64,000 nt of DNA from NCBI GenBank assembly GCA_944324305.1, contig CALUVV010000005.1, positions 1 to 64,000 of the forward strand. The letters are read 5' to 3'. Of the stretch, positions 4,551-28,038 are shown piece by piece; within the stretch, counting starts at the first letter, position 1, and every line of letters begins with the position of its first letter. The position numbers and the translations under genes are program-made. This DNA comes from Candidatus Gastranaerophilales bacterium. GTDB taxonomy: Bacteria > Cyanobacteriota > Vampirovibrionia > Gastranaerophilales > Gastranaerophilaceae. The notes under the pieces are model-generated. The model had not been told where the DNA came from. It made no database searches and worked only from the letters and a program-made list of their open reading frames with translations.

Positions 4551-7514
4551 ATGAAATGTCCGATTTGCAAAAAAACAATTCCTGACAATGCGCTTAAATG
4601 CCCTTATTGTAAGGCTCGTACAGGATTAATCTGTAAAAATTGCGGCACTGTAAATTCTATATTTGACTTTACCTGCAAAAAATGCGGCAAAGAAATATTA
4701 AAAGCGTGTCCGAACTGTAACGGCGTAAATTTTCCTAATGCCGAAAAATGCCGAAAATGCGGTTATTTATTCCCAACAAGCAAACCTGAGGAAGAAGACG
4801 GGCAAATAAAACTTGAATATCCCGCAAATCTTGTTTCACAACAAAGTGCAAAAAATATTCTTATTAAAGGCCTGCTTTCTAATGATAAAAAAATTTTTTC
4901 ACTAAGCGGAGAAAAAGGCATTGGAAAAAGTCTTGTGTTAAAAGCAATTATGCATGATTTAAAGCACAGAAATTTTTCATGGCTATACGGTAAATGCACT
5001 CCGATTACACAGCTGACTTCCGGAGGTCTTATTCAGGATATTTTGCTGAATATATTTAATCTGCCGAATTTCTGCTTAAATAATCTCCAGTTTAAAAAAG
5101 ATGCTTCAAAATATTTTAAAAATGAGTTTCCGCATCTCAACAGCAATGAAATTTTTGACCTTATTAACTTTCTTTATCCGCATCAGGAAGGAACGTTTGA
5201 AGAAATTGCAGCGGCAAAAAACAGAACTTTTGATTTTCTGAATAAAATTTTTGACACAATAACTCTTAACAATAAATTTGTTATAGTAATTGATAACTTT
5301 GACTTCATTGACGGTTTTTCTTATGAATTTATCAGCCGCTACATAAAAAAAGAAAATGTATGGGGAAATTTAAAATTTCTGCTTATATACAATGAGCCTA
5401 AACCTGCTAAAGGATATTTTTATTTTCCGTCAAATAAAGATGAAAATATTTATCTTGATGTCGGCATTGCTCCTCTGGAATTTAAACAGATTAATACTCT
5501 GGTTGAGCAAAAAAACAATAAAATACAAGGCTTACCGCAGTTAAGCAAATCCGAATTACTTGAAATATATAAAATAAGCCGCGGAAATCCGTCATTTATA
5601 AATCACGCACTTGATTTATGTTTTGACTGCCAGTTGAGCGGACAACAATTTGAACTTGCAACGACTTTCACAGGAGTACTTGAATATAGGCTTGCACTGC
5701 TTTCACATATTAATCCGATAGCTTACGACATTTTGCTGGGTTCTGCAATTATAGGCGATAAGATTAATATAAACCTTATTAAAGAAATTTTTGAAACAGA
5801 TGATAAAACTTTCAGAGATGTAATGATATATTTGAAAAAAATGGATTACATCACACCCGTAAATGAGCTTTATTGCGAATTCAGCTCGCTGACATTATGG
5901 GAAACAATTATAAAGACAGCCAAAAACGATATTAATTATTCAAAAATTAACAAAAAAATCTTTAATCATCTGAACGGCTTTACCCTCAATTCACACGCAA
6001 TTCTCGGGATTATTGCGCAAAATCTCAAACAGCCCGAACTTGCGCTTGATATTTGGACTAAGAATACAAGATTTGCGGCTTATGCAGGAGATTTGAACCT
6101 TTACGCAATCTCACAGAAACAATCTTTAGCACTTATAAACGAGTTTGATGAAAGTCAAACTTTAAAAATTCGTTATAATATTTCCGAACGGCTCGGAAAA
6201 CTTCTTGCAAACTCAAATCCTTCTGAAGCTATAGAATATCTGCCCGATGCAATTTCAAATGCACAGGCTGTAGGTGACAGCCCGAAAGAAATTGAACTTC
6301 TTGCATATCTTGCATCCTGCTGCAGAAAGACTGGTAATTATTTCGGTGAAGTTGAATGTGTAGATTCCGTGCTTAAAAAAGTTAAGCCCGAAGATGTCGT
6401 TGAAATTGCACTTCTCAAGACAACAAAACTTAACGCGCTTTTAAACATCGGAAATTGCGGACAAATTATAAATATGATTGACACTGAAATTATGCCTGTT
6501 CTGGACCAGTATTTCAGTAAAAAACAAAATGCCGCCGACCCGCAGTTAGGGTTTATGTATGAAACATGGCTTAAAACATATCTTGTACTTGCAAATGCTC
6601 TTGTAATGCAGGGAAATGACAGGTCTTTCGAAATATTGACAATTCTTTTTGATATCATTGACAGAAATCAAATTCAGGATGAATTGTTTATTTGCAAGTG
6701 TAAATTGACACTGGCCTTTGCAAACACAGTTAAAGGTAATTTCAAAGCTTCCGAACAGATGCTTGAAGAAGTTCTCAGATCATACCGCGAAAACGTAATG
6801 GATAATGAAACAATTTTAAGATGGAATTTCATTAACATTATAAATAACTTTTTCAGAAAACGTTATGACGGTGTTCAGGAAGATTTATTCCAGGTAGTAA
6901 CCTTTGCAAACAATAACGGTGATAACTTTACCAAGAATATTTTAAAAACTCTGCTCGGAAAAGTATTTAAAGATAATAATAATTCAAAGCAGGCAATGGA
7001 AATTTATAATGACCAGATTGCATATTTTGCTAAGGAGAAAATGGCTCTGGGAGCACTGTTAACCTGGTTTTTAATTGCGGATGCGACATTAATCACCGAA
7101 GGTCCTCAAAATGCAAGAGAAATCGCCGAACAGGCACTTGAGGTTGCTCAAAATCCGAAAATAGATAATTACTTCTTTGTAATTCTCCTAAAAATGGTTA
7201 TAGCTAAATGCTGCATAACCGTTTCGGACTTTGAAACCGCCAAATCCCATCTCGAAAGCGCAATATTAATCGCAAGAAAATTTAATATTAAAGACCTTCT
7301 ATCAAGATTATATATACTTTACGGCAAATATTTTCAGGAATTGGGTCTTATAAAGTCATCCCGCCAGCAGGAATACCTCAAAGGTGCCGAAAAAATGTAT
7401 AAGCAGGCAGAAGAATTGATTGCAAAAACAAAAAATGCTTATGTAAATTCCGATCTTAAAAAGGCTCAGAATGTTTTATCATCCTTCTGCAAGCTTAATA
7501 ATATAGAAATTTAA
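4551..7514 (+). CDS. Zinc-ribbon STAND-like ATPase with TPR-like C-terminus
   Basis: The 987-aa protein begins with two or three zinc ribbons (eight or more CxxC pairs in residues 3-75). A P-loop (GEKGIGKS) follows near residue 120, and a Walker B-type strand (FVIVIDNFDF) near 243. The remaining part, from about 480, is all-helical with TPR-like repeats. This order (sensor ribbon, NTPase, helical repeat scaffold) is that of STAND/predictor-ATPase signalling proteins. It is the last gene of the sigma factor unit. Its stop overlaps by 4 bp the convergent prepilin gene. Substrate or ligand is unknown. Confidence 0.8.
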   Translation: MKCPICKKTIPDNALKCPYCKARTGLICKNCGTVNSIFDFTCKKCGKEILKACPNCNGVNFPNAEKCRKCGYLFPTSKPEEEDGQIKLEYPANLVSQQSAKNILIKGLLSNDKKIFSLSGEKGIGKSLVLKAIMHDLKHRNFSWLYGKCTPITQLTSGGLIQDILLNIFNLPNFCLNNLQFKKDASKYFKNEFPHLNSNEIFDLINFLYPHQEGTFEEIAAAKNRTFDFLNKIFDTITLNNKFVIVIDNFDFIDGFSYEFISRYIKKENVWGNLKFLLIYNEPKPAKGYFYFPSNKDENIYLDVGIAPLEFKQINTLVEQKNNKIQGLPQLSKSELLEIYKISRGNPSFINHALDLCFDCQLSGQQFELATTFTGVLEYRLALLSHINPIAYDILLGSAIIGDKININLIKEIFETDDKTFRDVMIYLKKMDYITPVNELYCEFSSLTLWETIIKTAKNDINYSKINKKIFNHLNGFTLNSHAILGIIAQNLKQPELALDIWTKNTRFAAYAGDLNLYAISQKQSLALINEFDESQTLKIRYNISERLGKLLANSNPSEAIEYLPDAISNAQAVGDSPKEIELLAYLASCCRKTGNYFGEVECVDSVLKKVKPEDVVEIALLKTTKLNALLNIGNCGQIINMIDTEIMPVLDQYFSKKQNAADPQLGFMYETWLKTYLVLANALVMQGNDRSFEILTILFDIIDRNQIQDELFICKCKLTLAFANTVKGNFKASEQMLEEVLRSYRENVMDNETILRWNFINIINNFFRKRYDGVQEDLFQVVTFANNNGDNFTKNILKTLLGKVFKDNNNSKQAMEIYNDQIAYFAKEKMALGALLTWFLIADATLITEGPQNAREIAEQALEVAQNPKIDNYFFVILLKMVIAKCCITVSDFETAKSHLESAILIARKFNIKDLLSRLYILYGKYFQELGLIKSSRQQEYLKGAEKMYKQAEELIAKTKNAYVNSDLKKAQNVLSSFCKLNNIEI

Positions 7515-8274
7515 TAATTCATTTCCCAGCCGTCATTCAATATTTTGCCGAAACAGCCTCTAAAACGCGTACTGGATTTACACATAGAATTATATAGTCT
7601 TTCACGGGTTTCACGTGCATTGGCCGGCAAGGTGCATTCTTTCTTGATATTACAATCAGGCACAACCTCTTCTTCATCTATAGTACCGTTTTCGAAATAC
7701 GCCCAAAAGAACACATCTCTTCCGCCGATATTTGGTCCTTTCATACCATTGGTATCGACAAGAATATGGCTCCATTTAACATTATTGGAAGAATGCCCTG
7801 ACAAGGCCTCTATACACACGGAAGCACCGCTTCCGAGAACAGCACAATTAACATTGCCCCACCAATTTTTAACATTTTCTATACCGCCGCTTGAAACAGA
7901 AGCCCCGTTTAAATTTCTGTACTCACTATTTGGAATGCAGGGTGGTTCCAATTTGTCACACACGGTAACCGTCTTAAAATAAGTCTTTAAAAAATTATTT
8001 ACTTCCGTTTGGGATGTGAGTCCCGCCTCAGACAACGATACTGCATTTTTATCGGTTCTAAACTGTAAAAAAGCCTGTTGAAGTTCATTGTAAACCTTAT
8101 GAAGCTGAGTTACATAAGTCTTTTTCTGGTGATTTTGAATTAATGATGGTACAGTCATTGCGGAAACTACACCTATGATACCCAAAGTCACCAATACTTC
8201 AGCAAGAGTAAAAGCCTTGCAGGAGCCTAAAGTATGCCCCCCCCCCGAGTTACATTTCGTAATATTGTGTTCAT
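7511..8274 (-). CDS. Type IV prepilin-like protein, phase-variable (frame OFF as assembled)
   Basis: The body has the class III-type prepilin leader (KAFTLAEVLVTLGIIGVVSAM), a coiled N-helix (NHQKKTYVTQLHKVYNELQQAF), a loop DTNGMKGPNIGGRDVF that looks like a Ca-binding pseudopilin site, and ends GCFGKILNDGWEMNY. The only start with a good ribosome site (AAAGGAG, 6 nt away) is the ATG at 8274, but a run of ten G lies between it and the leader; with G10 the ATG frame stops at TAG 15 codons on. Eleven or eight G would give one continuous ORF. Without the ATG only a TTG inside the leader (8194) could start, which would lose the signal. Substrate of PilD and pilus or secretion pseudopilus is expected. 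Confidence 0.8.
8237..8246 (-). repeat. G10 homopolymer in prepilin leader
   Basis: Ten consecutive C on the plus strand, i.e. ten G in the coding sense, directly after codons for NVTR. One added G restores the frame from ATG 8274 to the FTLAEV leader. Slipped-strand mispairing is the established mechanism for such tracts. Confidence 0.95.
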
Positions 8275-8334
8275 TCCTTGCTCCTTTCTTTTATATAAAA
8301 ATTATAACATTCTTTTTAAGAATTTTCAATAAAA

Positions 8335-10298: not shown

Positions 10299-11005
10299 TT
10301 AATAATTCATTTCCCAGTTATCATTTAAGAGTTTTCCAAAGCAGCCATGCCAGGTGGCGTTATCCGCATTACAGGTTGTATTAAATAAATTTTCTCTTGT
10401 GTCTTTATCGCCCGGTGCGGTTGTAAGCGCGTATTCATCAACTATCCCGTTATTAAATAAGCCGAGAATAAAAACATCACGTCCTGCAATGTTAGGTCCC
10501 TGCTGTCCGTTAATATCAACATCAAAAATTGCAACCCGATTGTTATCTGCTGTACCTGAACTGCTAATTCCATAACCGAATGATACCCCGCTCGCAATAG
10601 TGACAAATGAAGATTGACCGGAACCTTTACCCATATTATAGCCGGAAAGTTTTTTGTAACTTGAAGCAAGACATGGGGTATTACTGCCGCAATCATTAAC
10701 AACTTTAAAATAGGTTTTTACAAAATTATCTAATGCTTCATTTGAAGTCAGACCTGCTTCTCTGAGATTTACGGCATTTTTATCAGTCATATACTGCTGT
10801 GCCGCCTGTTGAAGTTCATTATAGAACTTATGCATTTGAGTGACATAAGTTTTCCTCTGGTGATTTTGCATCAATGTAGGTACAGTCATTGCGGAAACTA
10901 CACCTATGATACCTAAAGTAACCAATACTTCAGCAAGAGTAAAAGCCTTGCAGGAGCCTAAAGTATGCCCCCCCCCCGAGTTACATTTCGTAATGTTTTT
11001 CTCAT
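10299..11005 (-). CDS. Type IV prepilin-like protein, phase-variable (frame OFF as assembled)
   Basis: This close paralogue of the 27.3-kb prepilin shows KAFTLAEVLVTLGIIGVV, the loop DINGQQGPNIAGRDVF and the C-terminus GCFGKLLNDNWEMNY. The ATG at 11005 has a perfect site (AAAGGAG, 6 nt). As at 8.2 kb, a G10 run (10968-10977) puts this ATG out of frame: it stops after about 15 codons at TAG. G11 or G8 would encode a leader of about 22 residues before Phe+1. The downstream TTG at 10925 lies inside the hydrophobic leader and is not a credible start. Pilus, pseudopilus or competence role is inferred from family. Confidence 0.8.
10968..10977 (-). repeat. G10 homopolymer in prepilin leader
   Basis: Same position and length as the tract at 8237-8246. 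The flanking 80 bp (from GTAACTC to past the FTLAEV codons) is nearly identical in the two genes. Confidence 0.95.
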
Positions 11006-21889: not shown

Positions 21890-22444
21890 TTATTCAAAAT
21901 ATCTGTTCATTATATTTTGTATAAAGTCGTTAACCTGCTGTGCCGAAGCTTTAACTTTATCCTTTTCAAAAAACTGACTTATAAAATTTAATCTGCTTAC
22001 GTTTGACGGAAGCTTGTCAGAAATCCTTGCACCATATATCAGAGCTTCGTCTGCAACATAATCCCTGTAATCATTGTCAACAATCATATCTTTATCATGT
22101 ATTGAACTTATTTTTCTTGTCAGTTTTGATATATAAGAAAAAACAGGTAAATTCTTATCGTTTACCTCGAGAAGCTCGTTGTTAACAAACACTCCGTCTT
22201 CAAAACGCCCCCCCCCCGAAACACACTCAATATTAAGTATTTCCGAAGAAATTTCATTATTGAATTTTGAAGGGGTGTCAGTAACTTTTTTTATCACATT
22301 ACGAAATTCCGTTAAATCTTTTCCGTTAAAATCATCTCTCAAAACCATTGAAAGACTTTTTGAAACAGTCGGTGCTTGTCTTGAAAATTCTGCCCAGGCA
22401 ATATTTCTAATTCCTGTAAAACTTACGTTATTAATCTTATCCAT
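21890..22444 (-). CDS. Tagged hypothetical protein (VSFTG) with in-frame G10 tract
   Basis: Paralogue of the downstream gene, 184 aa from ATG 22444 (MDKINNVSFTG; ATG 22453 would add three residues). Unlike its paralogue it carries an in-frame run of ten G (codons for SGGGR) in a loop region at about residue 78, where the sister protein has SIPSED. As assembled it is ON; a one-base slip would truncate it shortly after. Upstream there is no good ribosome site. Confidence 0.7.
   Translation of the reverse strand: MDKINNVSFTGIRNIAWAEFSRQAPTVSKSLSMVLRDDFNGKDLTEFRNVIKKVTDTPSKFNNEISSEILNIECVSGGGRFEDGVFVNNELLEVNDKNLPVFSYISKLTRKISSIHDKDMIVDNDYRDYVADEALIYGARISDKLPSNVSRLNFISQFFEKDKVKASAQQVNDFIQNIMNRYFE
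22208..22217 (-). repeat. G10 homopolymer, in frame
   Basis: TCG followed by nine G codons-worth, coding S-G-G-G-R. The 15-bp block TCG-G9-CGT is identical to that in the prepilin leader at 28.0 kb, though the reading frame use differs. Confidence 0.9.
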
Positions 22445-22524
22445 AGCAATCATAAAACCCGTAAAAAAAATTTTTGCGTGTGATATAATTATTTTACAGA
22501 ATTTAATAATTGGAGAAAAAGATT

Positions 22525-27328: not shown

Positions 27329-28038
27329 TTAATAGTTCATTTCAAAATTGTCATTTAAAAGTTTGCCGAAGCAGCCTGTCCAAGAGCCGTTATCTGAAGT
27401 ACAATTAGCAGTAAACAAATTTTCTCTTGTATCCTTATCACCCGGGGCGGTTGCAAGCTCGTATTCATCCACTATTCCGTTATTGAACAAGCCCAGTATA
27501 AATACGTCACGTCCTGCAATATTAGGACCTTGCGGTCCGTTTATATCTACATCAAAAATTGCAATCCTGTTGTTATCTGCGATACCGGTGTTTGTAATGC
27601 CGAAACCGAACGATGCTCCGCTTGCAATAGTAACATTCAATTGTTGTCCTGTACCTTTCCCGAGATCAGTCCCTGATATCTTTCTGTAATTTGCGGCAAA
27701 GCAGGGCTGCTGAGAAGCTCCGCAATCATTAACAACTTTAAAATATGTTTTTACAAAATTATCTAACGCTTCATTTGAAGTCAGACCTGCTTCTCTTAGA
27801 TTTACGGCATTTTTATCAGTCATATACTGCTGTGCTGCCTGTTGAAGCTCATTATAAACTTTATGAATTTGCGTCACATACGTCTTTTTTTGATGATTTT
27901 GCATCAAAGTAGGTACGGTCATTGCGGAAACTACACCAATTATACCTAGAGTAACAAGAACCTCAGCAAGAGTAAAAGCTTTGCAGGAGCCTAAAGTACG
28001 CCCCCCCCCCGAGTTACATAACTTAATAAATCTTTCAT
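27329..28038 (-). CDS. Type IV prepilin-like protein, phase-variable (frame OFF from true ATG)
   Basis: Close paralogue of the 10.3-kb prepilin (same AGLTSNEALDNFVKTYFKVVND, DINGPQGPNIAGRDVF and GCFGKLLNDNFEMNY). The ATG at 28038 has AAGGAG at ideal distance but with G10 (28001-28010) it ends at TAG after 15 codons. A GTG at 28045 is in frame with the body, but it overlaps the ribosome site itself, so it can hardly start. G11 or G8 would put the ATG in frame. Same logic as the other two tracts. Confidence 0.8.
28001..28010 (-). repeat. G10 homopolymer in prepilin leader
   Basis: Third tract of exactly ten G at the same codon position in a prepilin leader (after GTAACTC, before CGTACTTTAGG). 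Confidence 0.95.

Follow-up and report, generated by a model that had tools for sequence, protein, structure and literature searches.

How can a prepilin be made from a locus at which the ribosome-binding site and start codon lie in one reading frame and the mature protein lies in another? The question is raised by a minus-strand gene of the window, that is, the whole stretch of 64,000 nucleotides analysed (contig CALUVV010000005.1, positions 1 to 64,000), which comes from the Candidatus Gastranaerophilales species under study, here called G000. At this locus (window 7511-8287) a leader of 15 codons, opened by AAAGGAG and ATG 8274, runs into a tract of ten G (8246-8237), and the TAG of the leader frame, with its lowest coordinate at 8227, follows just 3' of the tract. 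The prepilin body begins with FTLAEVLVTLG at 8212 and is open in the -1 frame to a stop at 7511. Below, d denotes how far the frame that is open beyond the tract is shifted relative to the Shine-Dalgarno-linked start.

8281 to 8287, minus strand: Shine-Dalgarno sequence AAAGGAG of prepilin 1, from the sequence.
8227 to 8274, minus strand: leader reading frame of prepilin 1 from ATG 8274, MNTILRNVTRGGGIL, ending in TAG directly past the tract.
8237 to 8246, minus strand: G10 tract (C-G10-C) in the prepilin 1 leader; frame broken, body in the -1 frame, d=2.
7511 to 8212, minus strand: body of prepilin 1, FTLAEVLVTLG... to stop, 233 aa, PF07963/TIGR02532.

The sequence-only reading had described a G10 tract separating a strong start, ATG 8274, from a prepilin body in another frame, and this arrangement was confirmed in the sequence. 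No ATG, GTG or TTG was found in the body frame between the upstream stop and the cleavage motif, and the earliest candidate start in that frame, TTG 8194, lies within the mature protein. The frames are joined by adding one G or removing two at 8237-8246, as claimed. The proposed position of the tract, in a prepilin leader and 5' of the cleavage motif, is borne out by the matches of the body and its upstream frame to PF07963 and TIGR02532, both above cut-off.

The window contains exactly four runs of at least eight G or C, every one of them G10 and every one on the minus strand; matches to G8 number 12, against a chance expectation of 0.27 (100 shuffles, the largest count being 3). The remaining three tracts and their genes are as follows.

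10968 to 10977, minus strand: G10 tract in the leader of prepilin 2 (ATG 11005), phase broken as in prepilin 1.
10299 to 11005, minus strand: prepilin 2 from the start of its leader through the stop codon, the body of 214 aa opening with FTLAEV at 10943.
28001 to 28010, minus strand: G10 tract in the leader of prepilin 3 (ATG 28038), phase broken as in prepilin 1.
27329 to 28038, minus strand: prepilin 3 from the start of its leader through the stop codon, the body of 215 aa opening with FTLAEV at 27976.
22208 to 22217, minus strand: G10 tract within a coding sequence, in frame (S-GGG-R), of the class that we call deep, default ON.
21890 to 22453, minus strand: gene in which this in-frame tract lies, encoding 187 aa that match no Pfam family.

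The window prepilins pass both PF07963 (22.3-22.6 bits, cut-off 21.2) and TIGR02532 (21.1-21.3, cut-off 16.3), and in 3/3 the frame from start codon to cleavage site is interrupted at G10. Poly-G contingency loci are recognised by runs of at least eight G or C close to the start of genes for surface proteins, and such runs are present here.

The locus had been read as a single silenced pilin; instead, it belongs to a genome-wide set of about 175 tracts whose length is not random. Exact-length counts over the whole G000 assembly (2.197 Mb, 16 contigs) gave no G9, 169 G10 and six G11, in genomes that are probably metagenome-assembled and in which length variation may be hidden by the consensus. 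Across 464 kb of G000, G runs of five and six number 81 and two, those of seven to nine are absent, and those of ten, eleven and thirteen number 61, one and one. A G13 that lacks the 5' C (contig C2, L020:16371), longer than any other G tract in the sampled part of G000, interrupts a short frame resembling what we take to be a candidate RelE-type toxin. In about 0.8-0.9 Mb of sequence, from stretches picked partly around tracts, the exact word C-G10-C accounts for 115/116 G10 tracts, with C on the 5' side in 115/116 and on the 3' side in 116/116; shorter G runs have C on either side in 19-44%. This 12-mer is strictly kept in unrelated genes as well. The G strand is constant per locus, no locus of G000 carrying G10 tracts of opposite strands.

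A regular phase relates leader to body. Frame statistics cover 122 of the roughly 175 G000 tracts, with starts assigned automatically (Shine-Dalgarno plus ATG) and some checked by hand. Among G000 prepilin leaders with ten G or C on the coding strand, d is 2 in 87/88 and 0 in 1/88, and at G11 the frames are joined (d=0) in 4/5. Prepilin leaders of congeners likewise have d=2 at G10, in 29/29 cases in G007 and 26/27 in G026. The G9 tracts of relatives are mostly at d=1 and their G11 tracts mostly at d=0, with no compensating changes, and a change of one unit toggles the frame; in several species, length alone sets the frame, as had been proposed, G11 joining and G9 giving the third frame. The rule is common to G-coding and C-coding tracts, and the distances from ATG to tract span all three phases. 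Leader length itself varies, mainly by steps that preserve phase, and about ten tract-free prepilins in 464 kb have short leaders and are in frame. Prepilin paralogues share ancestry, and these counts are of non-independent events; the independence of the phase is supported by the agreement of C-coding with G-coding leaders, of leaders differing in phase, of non-pilin genes and of unrelated deep genes. A metalloprotease-like gene, weakly resembling Peptidase_M91 below the cut-off, has d=2 in four species, as we read their leaders, whereas two further species have it in frame and with no tract, so the rule extends beyond pilins. Exceptions occur in G014, where two paralogues with C10 are joined through an indel adjoining the tract (L030:5651 and L032:6990; -2 bases / +1 base), which the related C10 loci L031:3555 and L037:9540 do not have; each of the two joined loci looks as though a mutation of its own had fixed it in the ON state.

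Tracts far within the coding sequences of G000 are in frame at 10 G in 12/12 cases. The family matches among these deep-tract genes include glycosyltransferase families 2 and 9 (heptosyltransferase), PMT_2, NAD-dependent sugar epimerase and a matrixin-type protease; they are mostly surface-glycan genes, with typical phase-variable surface functions. One orthologous deep tract has 10 G and is in frame in G000, and has 11 G and is frameshifted in the sister species G004. A family-2 glycosyltransferase of G000, G004, G020 and G003 contains ATG-NNG-GGG-GGG-GGG-CAG, where tract-free orthologues have, for example, ATG-GTT-GGA-GGA-AAG-CAA. Birth of the tract by simple insertion was rejected, since the glycosyltransferase tract arose via substitution at unchanged length. 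A long frame on contig C4 of G000 contains two G10 tracts (L225:16842 and L225:18008), the first in frame and the second at d=2, followed by a 719-nt open frame.

The orientation of the word was followed in G007, a well-assembled congener, using third-codon GC and TA skew computed separately for the genes of each strand. By this measure 69/69 C-G10-C words lie on the leading strand. On the large contigs the orientation switches at two places only, C1 176-349 kb and C2 581-638 kb, and the sign of the skew is reversed near C1 310-325 kb, with the pattern of an origin, and near C2 590-610 kb, with that of a terminus. Because these flips coincide with the skew-defined origin and terminus, the G strand is the leading strand. 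The strands of C-G10-C in G026 fall into blocks of the same pattern. The G007 interval at C1 176-349 kb leaves about 173 kb round the inferred origin without the word, against a genome average of one per 28 kb.

Such a distribution invites the explanation that C-G10-C is an oriented chromosome motif, a 12-bp recognition word that, like Chi or the sequences that orient FtsK, would be read at the replication fork and sited where coding permits, the effect on pilins being secondary. The strict 12-mer in unrelated genes, the leading-strand and block-wise patterns of G007 and G026, the tract-free stretch round the G007 origin and the creation of the glycosyltransferase tract in place by substitution all argue for it. 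However, the density is not similar among congeners, which have from 0 to about 175 copies per genome, and this leaves no constant function. Moreover, prepilin leaders hold most of the copies, and the motif does not explain a common broken phase in frames that nearby indels easily mend, as at L030 and L032 of G014. We regard this explanation as quite unlikely.

For the strand rule, a cause at the level of replication is supported by the leading-strand dependence of mutagenesis at short G tracts (PMC12344412), although the T-to-G effect itself is not visible here. At GnT hotspots, T is substituted by G after short G tracts, and mutability depends on leading-strand position and on the neighbouring bases (PMC12344412). 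The dependence on leading strand and flank is alike, whereas the switch proposed for the present tracts would be of the indel type, at 10 G, and 3' T is not lost. In a test for such hotspots, G4 and G5 runs on the leading strand retained 32-41% T, and GnT substitution was rejected as the origin of the C flanks, T 3' of short leading-strand G runs being undiminished. An inserted element, G10-N8-AGCT, common to both gene orientations was also dropped: AGCT in C-coding leaders represents KAL(R/K)V codons with synonymous changes, and AGCT near the tract in G-coding leaders may reflect ancestry. Spread of the tract by phage was likewise set aside, the extended element giving no match in IMG/VR.

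In the comparison of G000 with G004, the median dN/dS is 0.18 (0.14-0.35) for nine prepilin pairs of which both members carry a leader tract, 0.13 for one tract-free prepilin pair and 0.043 for other genes. As a ratio near 0.18 is well below 1, the prepilins whose frame is broken in the consensus of both species are constrained: they are under purifying selection and not dead. This value stands against decayed genes, and 10 G at the same loci in different species, the existence of longer tracts and the in-frame state of deep tracts at 10 speak against a sequencing or assembly artefact. Illumina reads do misbehave past G tracts (PMC9187656), and duplicated joins in G004 fit misreading, but artefact or decay was already disfavoured and is most improbable. 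At the joins concerned (G004 L024:14634-14671 and L040:10055-10093) the tract is repeated and bases past it are read as G (G13actctagg...G11cgtactctagg), which is consistent with Illumina misreading after G tracts; a G11 or G13 in a draft genome should not be trusted where the next base is A. Contig breaks at tracts were rejected as a sign of population heterogeneity, since such misreading looks alike (PMC9187656).

Comparison among relatives places the tracts in one genus and its family, where they are frequent; other families of the order are nearly without them. Most congeners also peak at exactly 10 G. The sequence-only reading had named an unvarying length in reads and relatives as a refutation, and on this point the relatives give a mixed answer: a few orthologues in G004 do differ by one, but nearly all stay at exactly 10. 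Lengths that differ between loci and strains were seen only in the congener G002, G10 making up 169/175 tracts in G000. The G002 tracts have 9-16 G, occur on both strands inside one contig and, in prepilin leaders of the same family with the tract in the same place, leave the body in all three phases. The sister genus G034 has tracts of 9-12 G with strands mixed and with non-C flanks. Ordinary length-variable tracts thus occur in the family, and the strict C-G10-C form is a distinct state. Loss of mismatch repair was rejected, the MutL family being present in 42/44 genomes searched, G000 and G002 among them.

These tracts might still be ordinary contingency loci whose uniform length is the population mode delivered by metagenome assembly, and the sequence-only reading had indeed called the tract a classic contingency locus. 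Part of that description stands: joined as well as broken loci exist, surface functions and precedents are known, a mixed-population consensus would display the mode, and G002 has plain variable tracts at the same position. Yet one phase at nearly all loci, strict C flanks and strict strand are not expected of such loci, and together with the uniform length they exceed the classic pattern. We consider the ordinary form very unlikely.

Constant phase and length could alternatively reflect a coding requirement. By programmed recoding, G10 itself would be expressed, either via a -1 ribosomal shift or via an RNA polymerase that adds one nucleotide. A homopolymer slippery site with a conserved phase is present, the phase rule holds in three species over three leader phases and both coding orientations, leaders vary mainly in phase-keeping steps, orthologues hold 10, and the out-of-frame genes are under purifying selection. 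Recoding leaves without account, however, the leading-strand placement, the C flanks and the exact G10 of non-coding and in-frame deep tracts, while relatives carry uncompensated G9 and G11 and G002 has no phase rule. The one candidate for a stimulatory pairing that was examined, Shine-Dalgarno with GCTC, appears in 15/55 predicted folds. On these sequence grounds recoding seems unlikely.

The explanation that we tentatively favour, though we would put it a little short of an even chance, is a genome-wide switchboard operated by replication slippage, with a set-point of G10 at which pilins are OFF and glycan genes ON by default. The resting state would be C-G10-C on the leading strand. In the leaders of pilins, and in a small number of further surface genes, 10 G would mean OFF and 11 G (or 8) ON, and in surface-glycan genes with deep tracts 10 G would mean ON. 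A slip of +1 would turn on one pilin in a cell lineage and a return to 10 would turn it off, each cell thereby expressing a sparse, changing subset of many pilins. Slippage as the switching agent, the minority status of ON cells and the return to 10 are inferred from sequence. Joining leader and body by slippage appears simplest, and slippage is favoured because of a pilin precedent in Bifidobacterium breve (PMC9187656), the surface functions and the uncompensated G9 and G11 alleles. Selection for pilins OFF and glycans ON by default is proposed as the reason for the two phase classes. The exact word and its strand imply one of three things: a common mutational set-point seen as the consensus mode, selection for one usefully switching sequence and orientation, or a maintaining factor.

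Several findings sit uneasily with a slippage switchboard. One length accounts for 97% of tracts and the frame is broken at about 95% of prepilin loci, and plain slippage gives no account of the C flanks or of the absence of d=1 (ON at 9). An OFF phase opened by +1 only fits G000, with six G11 and no G9, but not the genus as a whole, in which the genomes counted have 102 G9 and 105 G11. A dedicated, replication-coupled system might instead read leading-strand C-G10-C and hold or reset exactly ten, with a specific +1 change, or else regulated -1 recoding, releasing the pilins from their common broken phase; judged from the sequence, such a programmable global register is a doubtful but serious possibility.

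The contingency loci of Campylobacter, Helicobacter and Neisseria resemble this set in having poly-G inside the coding sequence of surface genes, a frame set by length and a common OFF state. Ordinary contingency tracts have spread lengths and an ON share near neutral drift. Those of the three genera differ from the present set, which comprises about 175 loci and has one exact length, fixed C flanks, the leading strand only and, in leaders, a single OFF phase. The vlhA genes of Mycoplasma gallisepticum are also alike, in that they are numerous paralogues encoding surface proteins, whose expression depends on one exact number of repeats; their repeat is a trinucleotide, (GAA)n, in the promoter, acts on transcription and differs in length among silent loci. 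Campylobacter tracts are about 52% G9 and 30% G10, and C. jejuni has a genome median of about 20 phase-variable tracts (PMC6321876). The precedent in B. breve, a gut commensal, is ON/OFF switching by G-tract slippage in the first pilin gene (bbr_0113 / bbr_1889), where a G tract near the pilin start parts the signal-sequence reading frame from the body, the reference is OFF and slippage joins the two (PMC9187656). It differs in comprising two sortase-pilus loci with lengths of 10-12 between loci and strains and no strand or flank rule reported, whereas many type IV prepilins are involved here (PMC9187656).

If the switchboard exists, it would be an unusually large set of slippage-type switches, in uncultured gut bacteria that are relatives of cyanobacteria. 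Its three regularities, one exact word, one strand and one phase, are undescribed for such switches in the literature found, from a search in which most subscription journals lay outside coverage. The set makes testable the constancy of homopolymer length at about 170 loci with inducible pilins, and replication strand as a determinant of slippage. Gene callers will annotate most pilins of the genus as truncated or false-started.

The leaders have further features. The Shine-Dalgarno sequences of tract-bearing G000 prepilins are GGAGC/T/A in G-coding leaders, with GGAGG in 0/74, and GGAGG in 17/18 C-coding leaders; sequestration of the Shine-Dalgarno sequence by GCTCC was rejected, pairing being predicted in just 15/55 folds. 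Long leader variants (L010:6403, L012:15568, L013:188, L018:4755 and L005:19444) contain small palindromic repeats, for example GTGCCGGGTCAAGCGGCAC and CTACGCACGTAG, in phase-keeping multiples, and the cleaved prepilin leader seems to be a harbour for such tiny repeats. Finally, the cleavage motif looks duplicated in the prepilin bodies at L071, L149 and L232, where FTLAEGATH... stands ahead of FTLAEVL.
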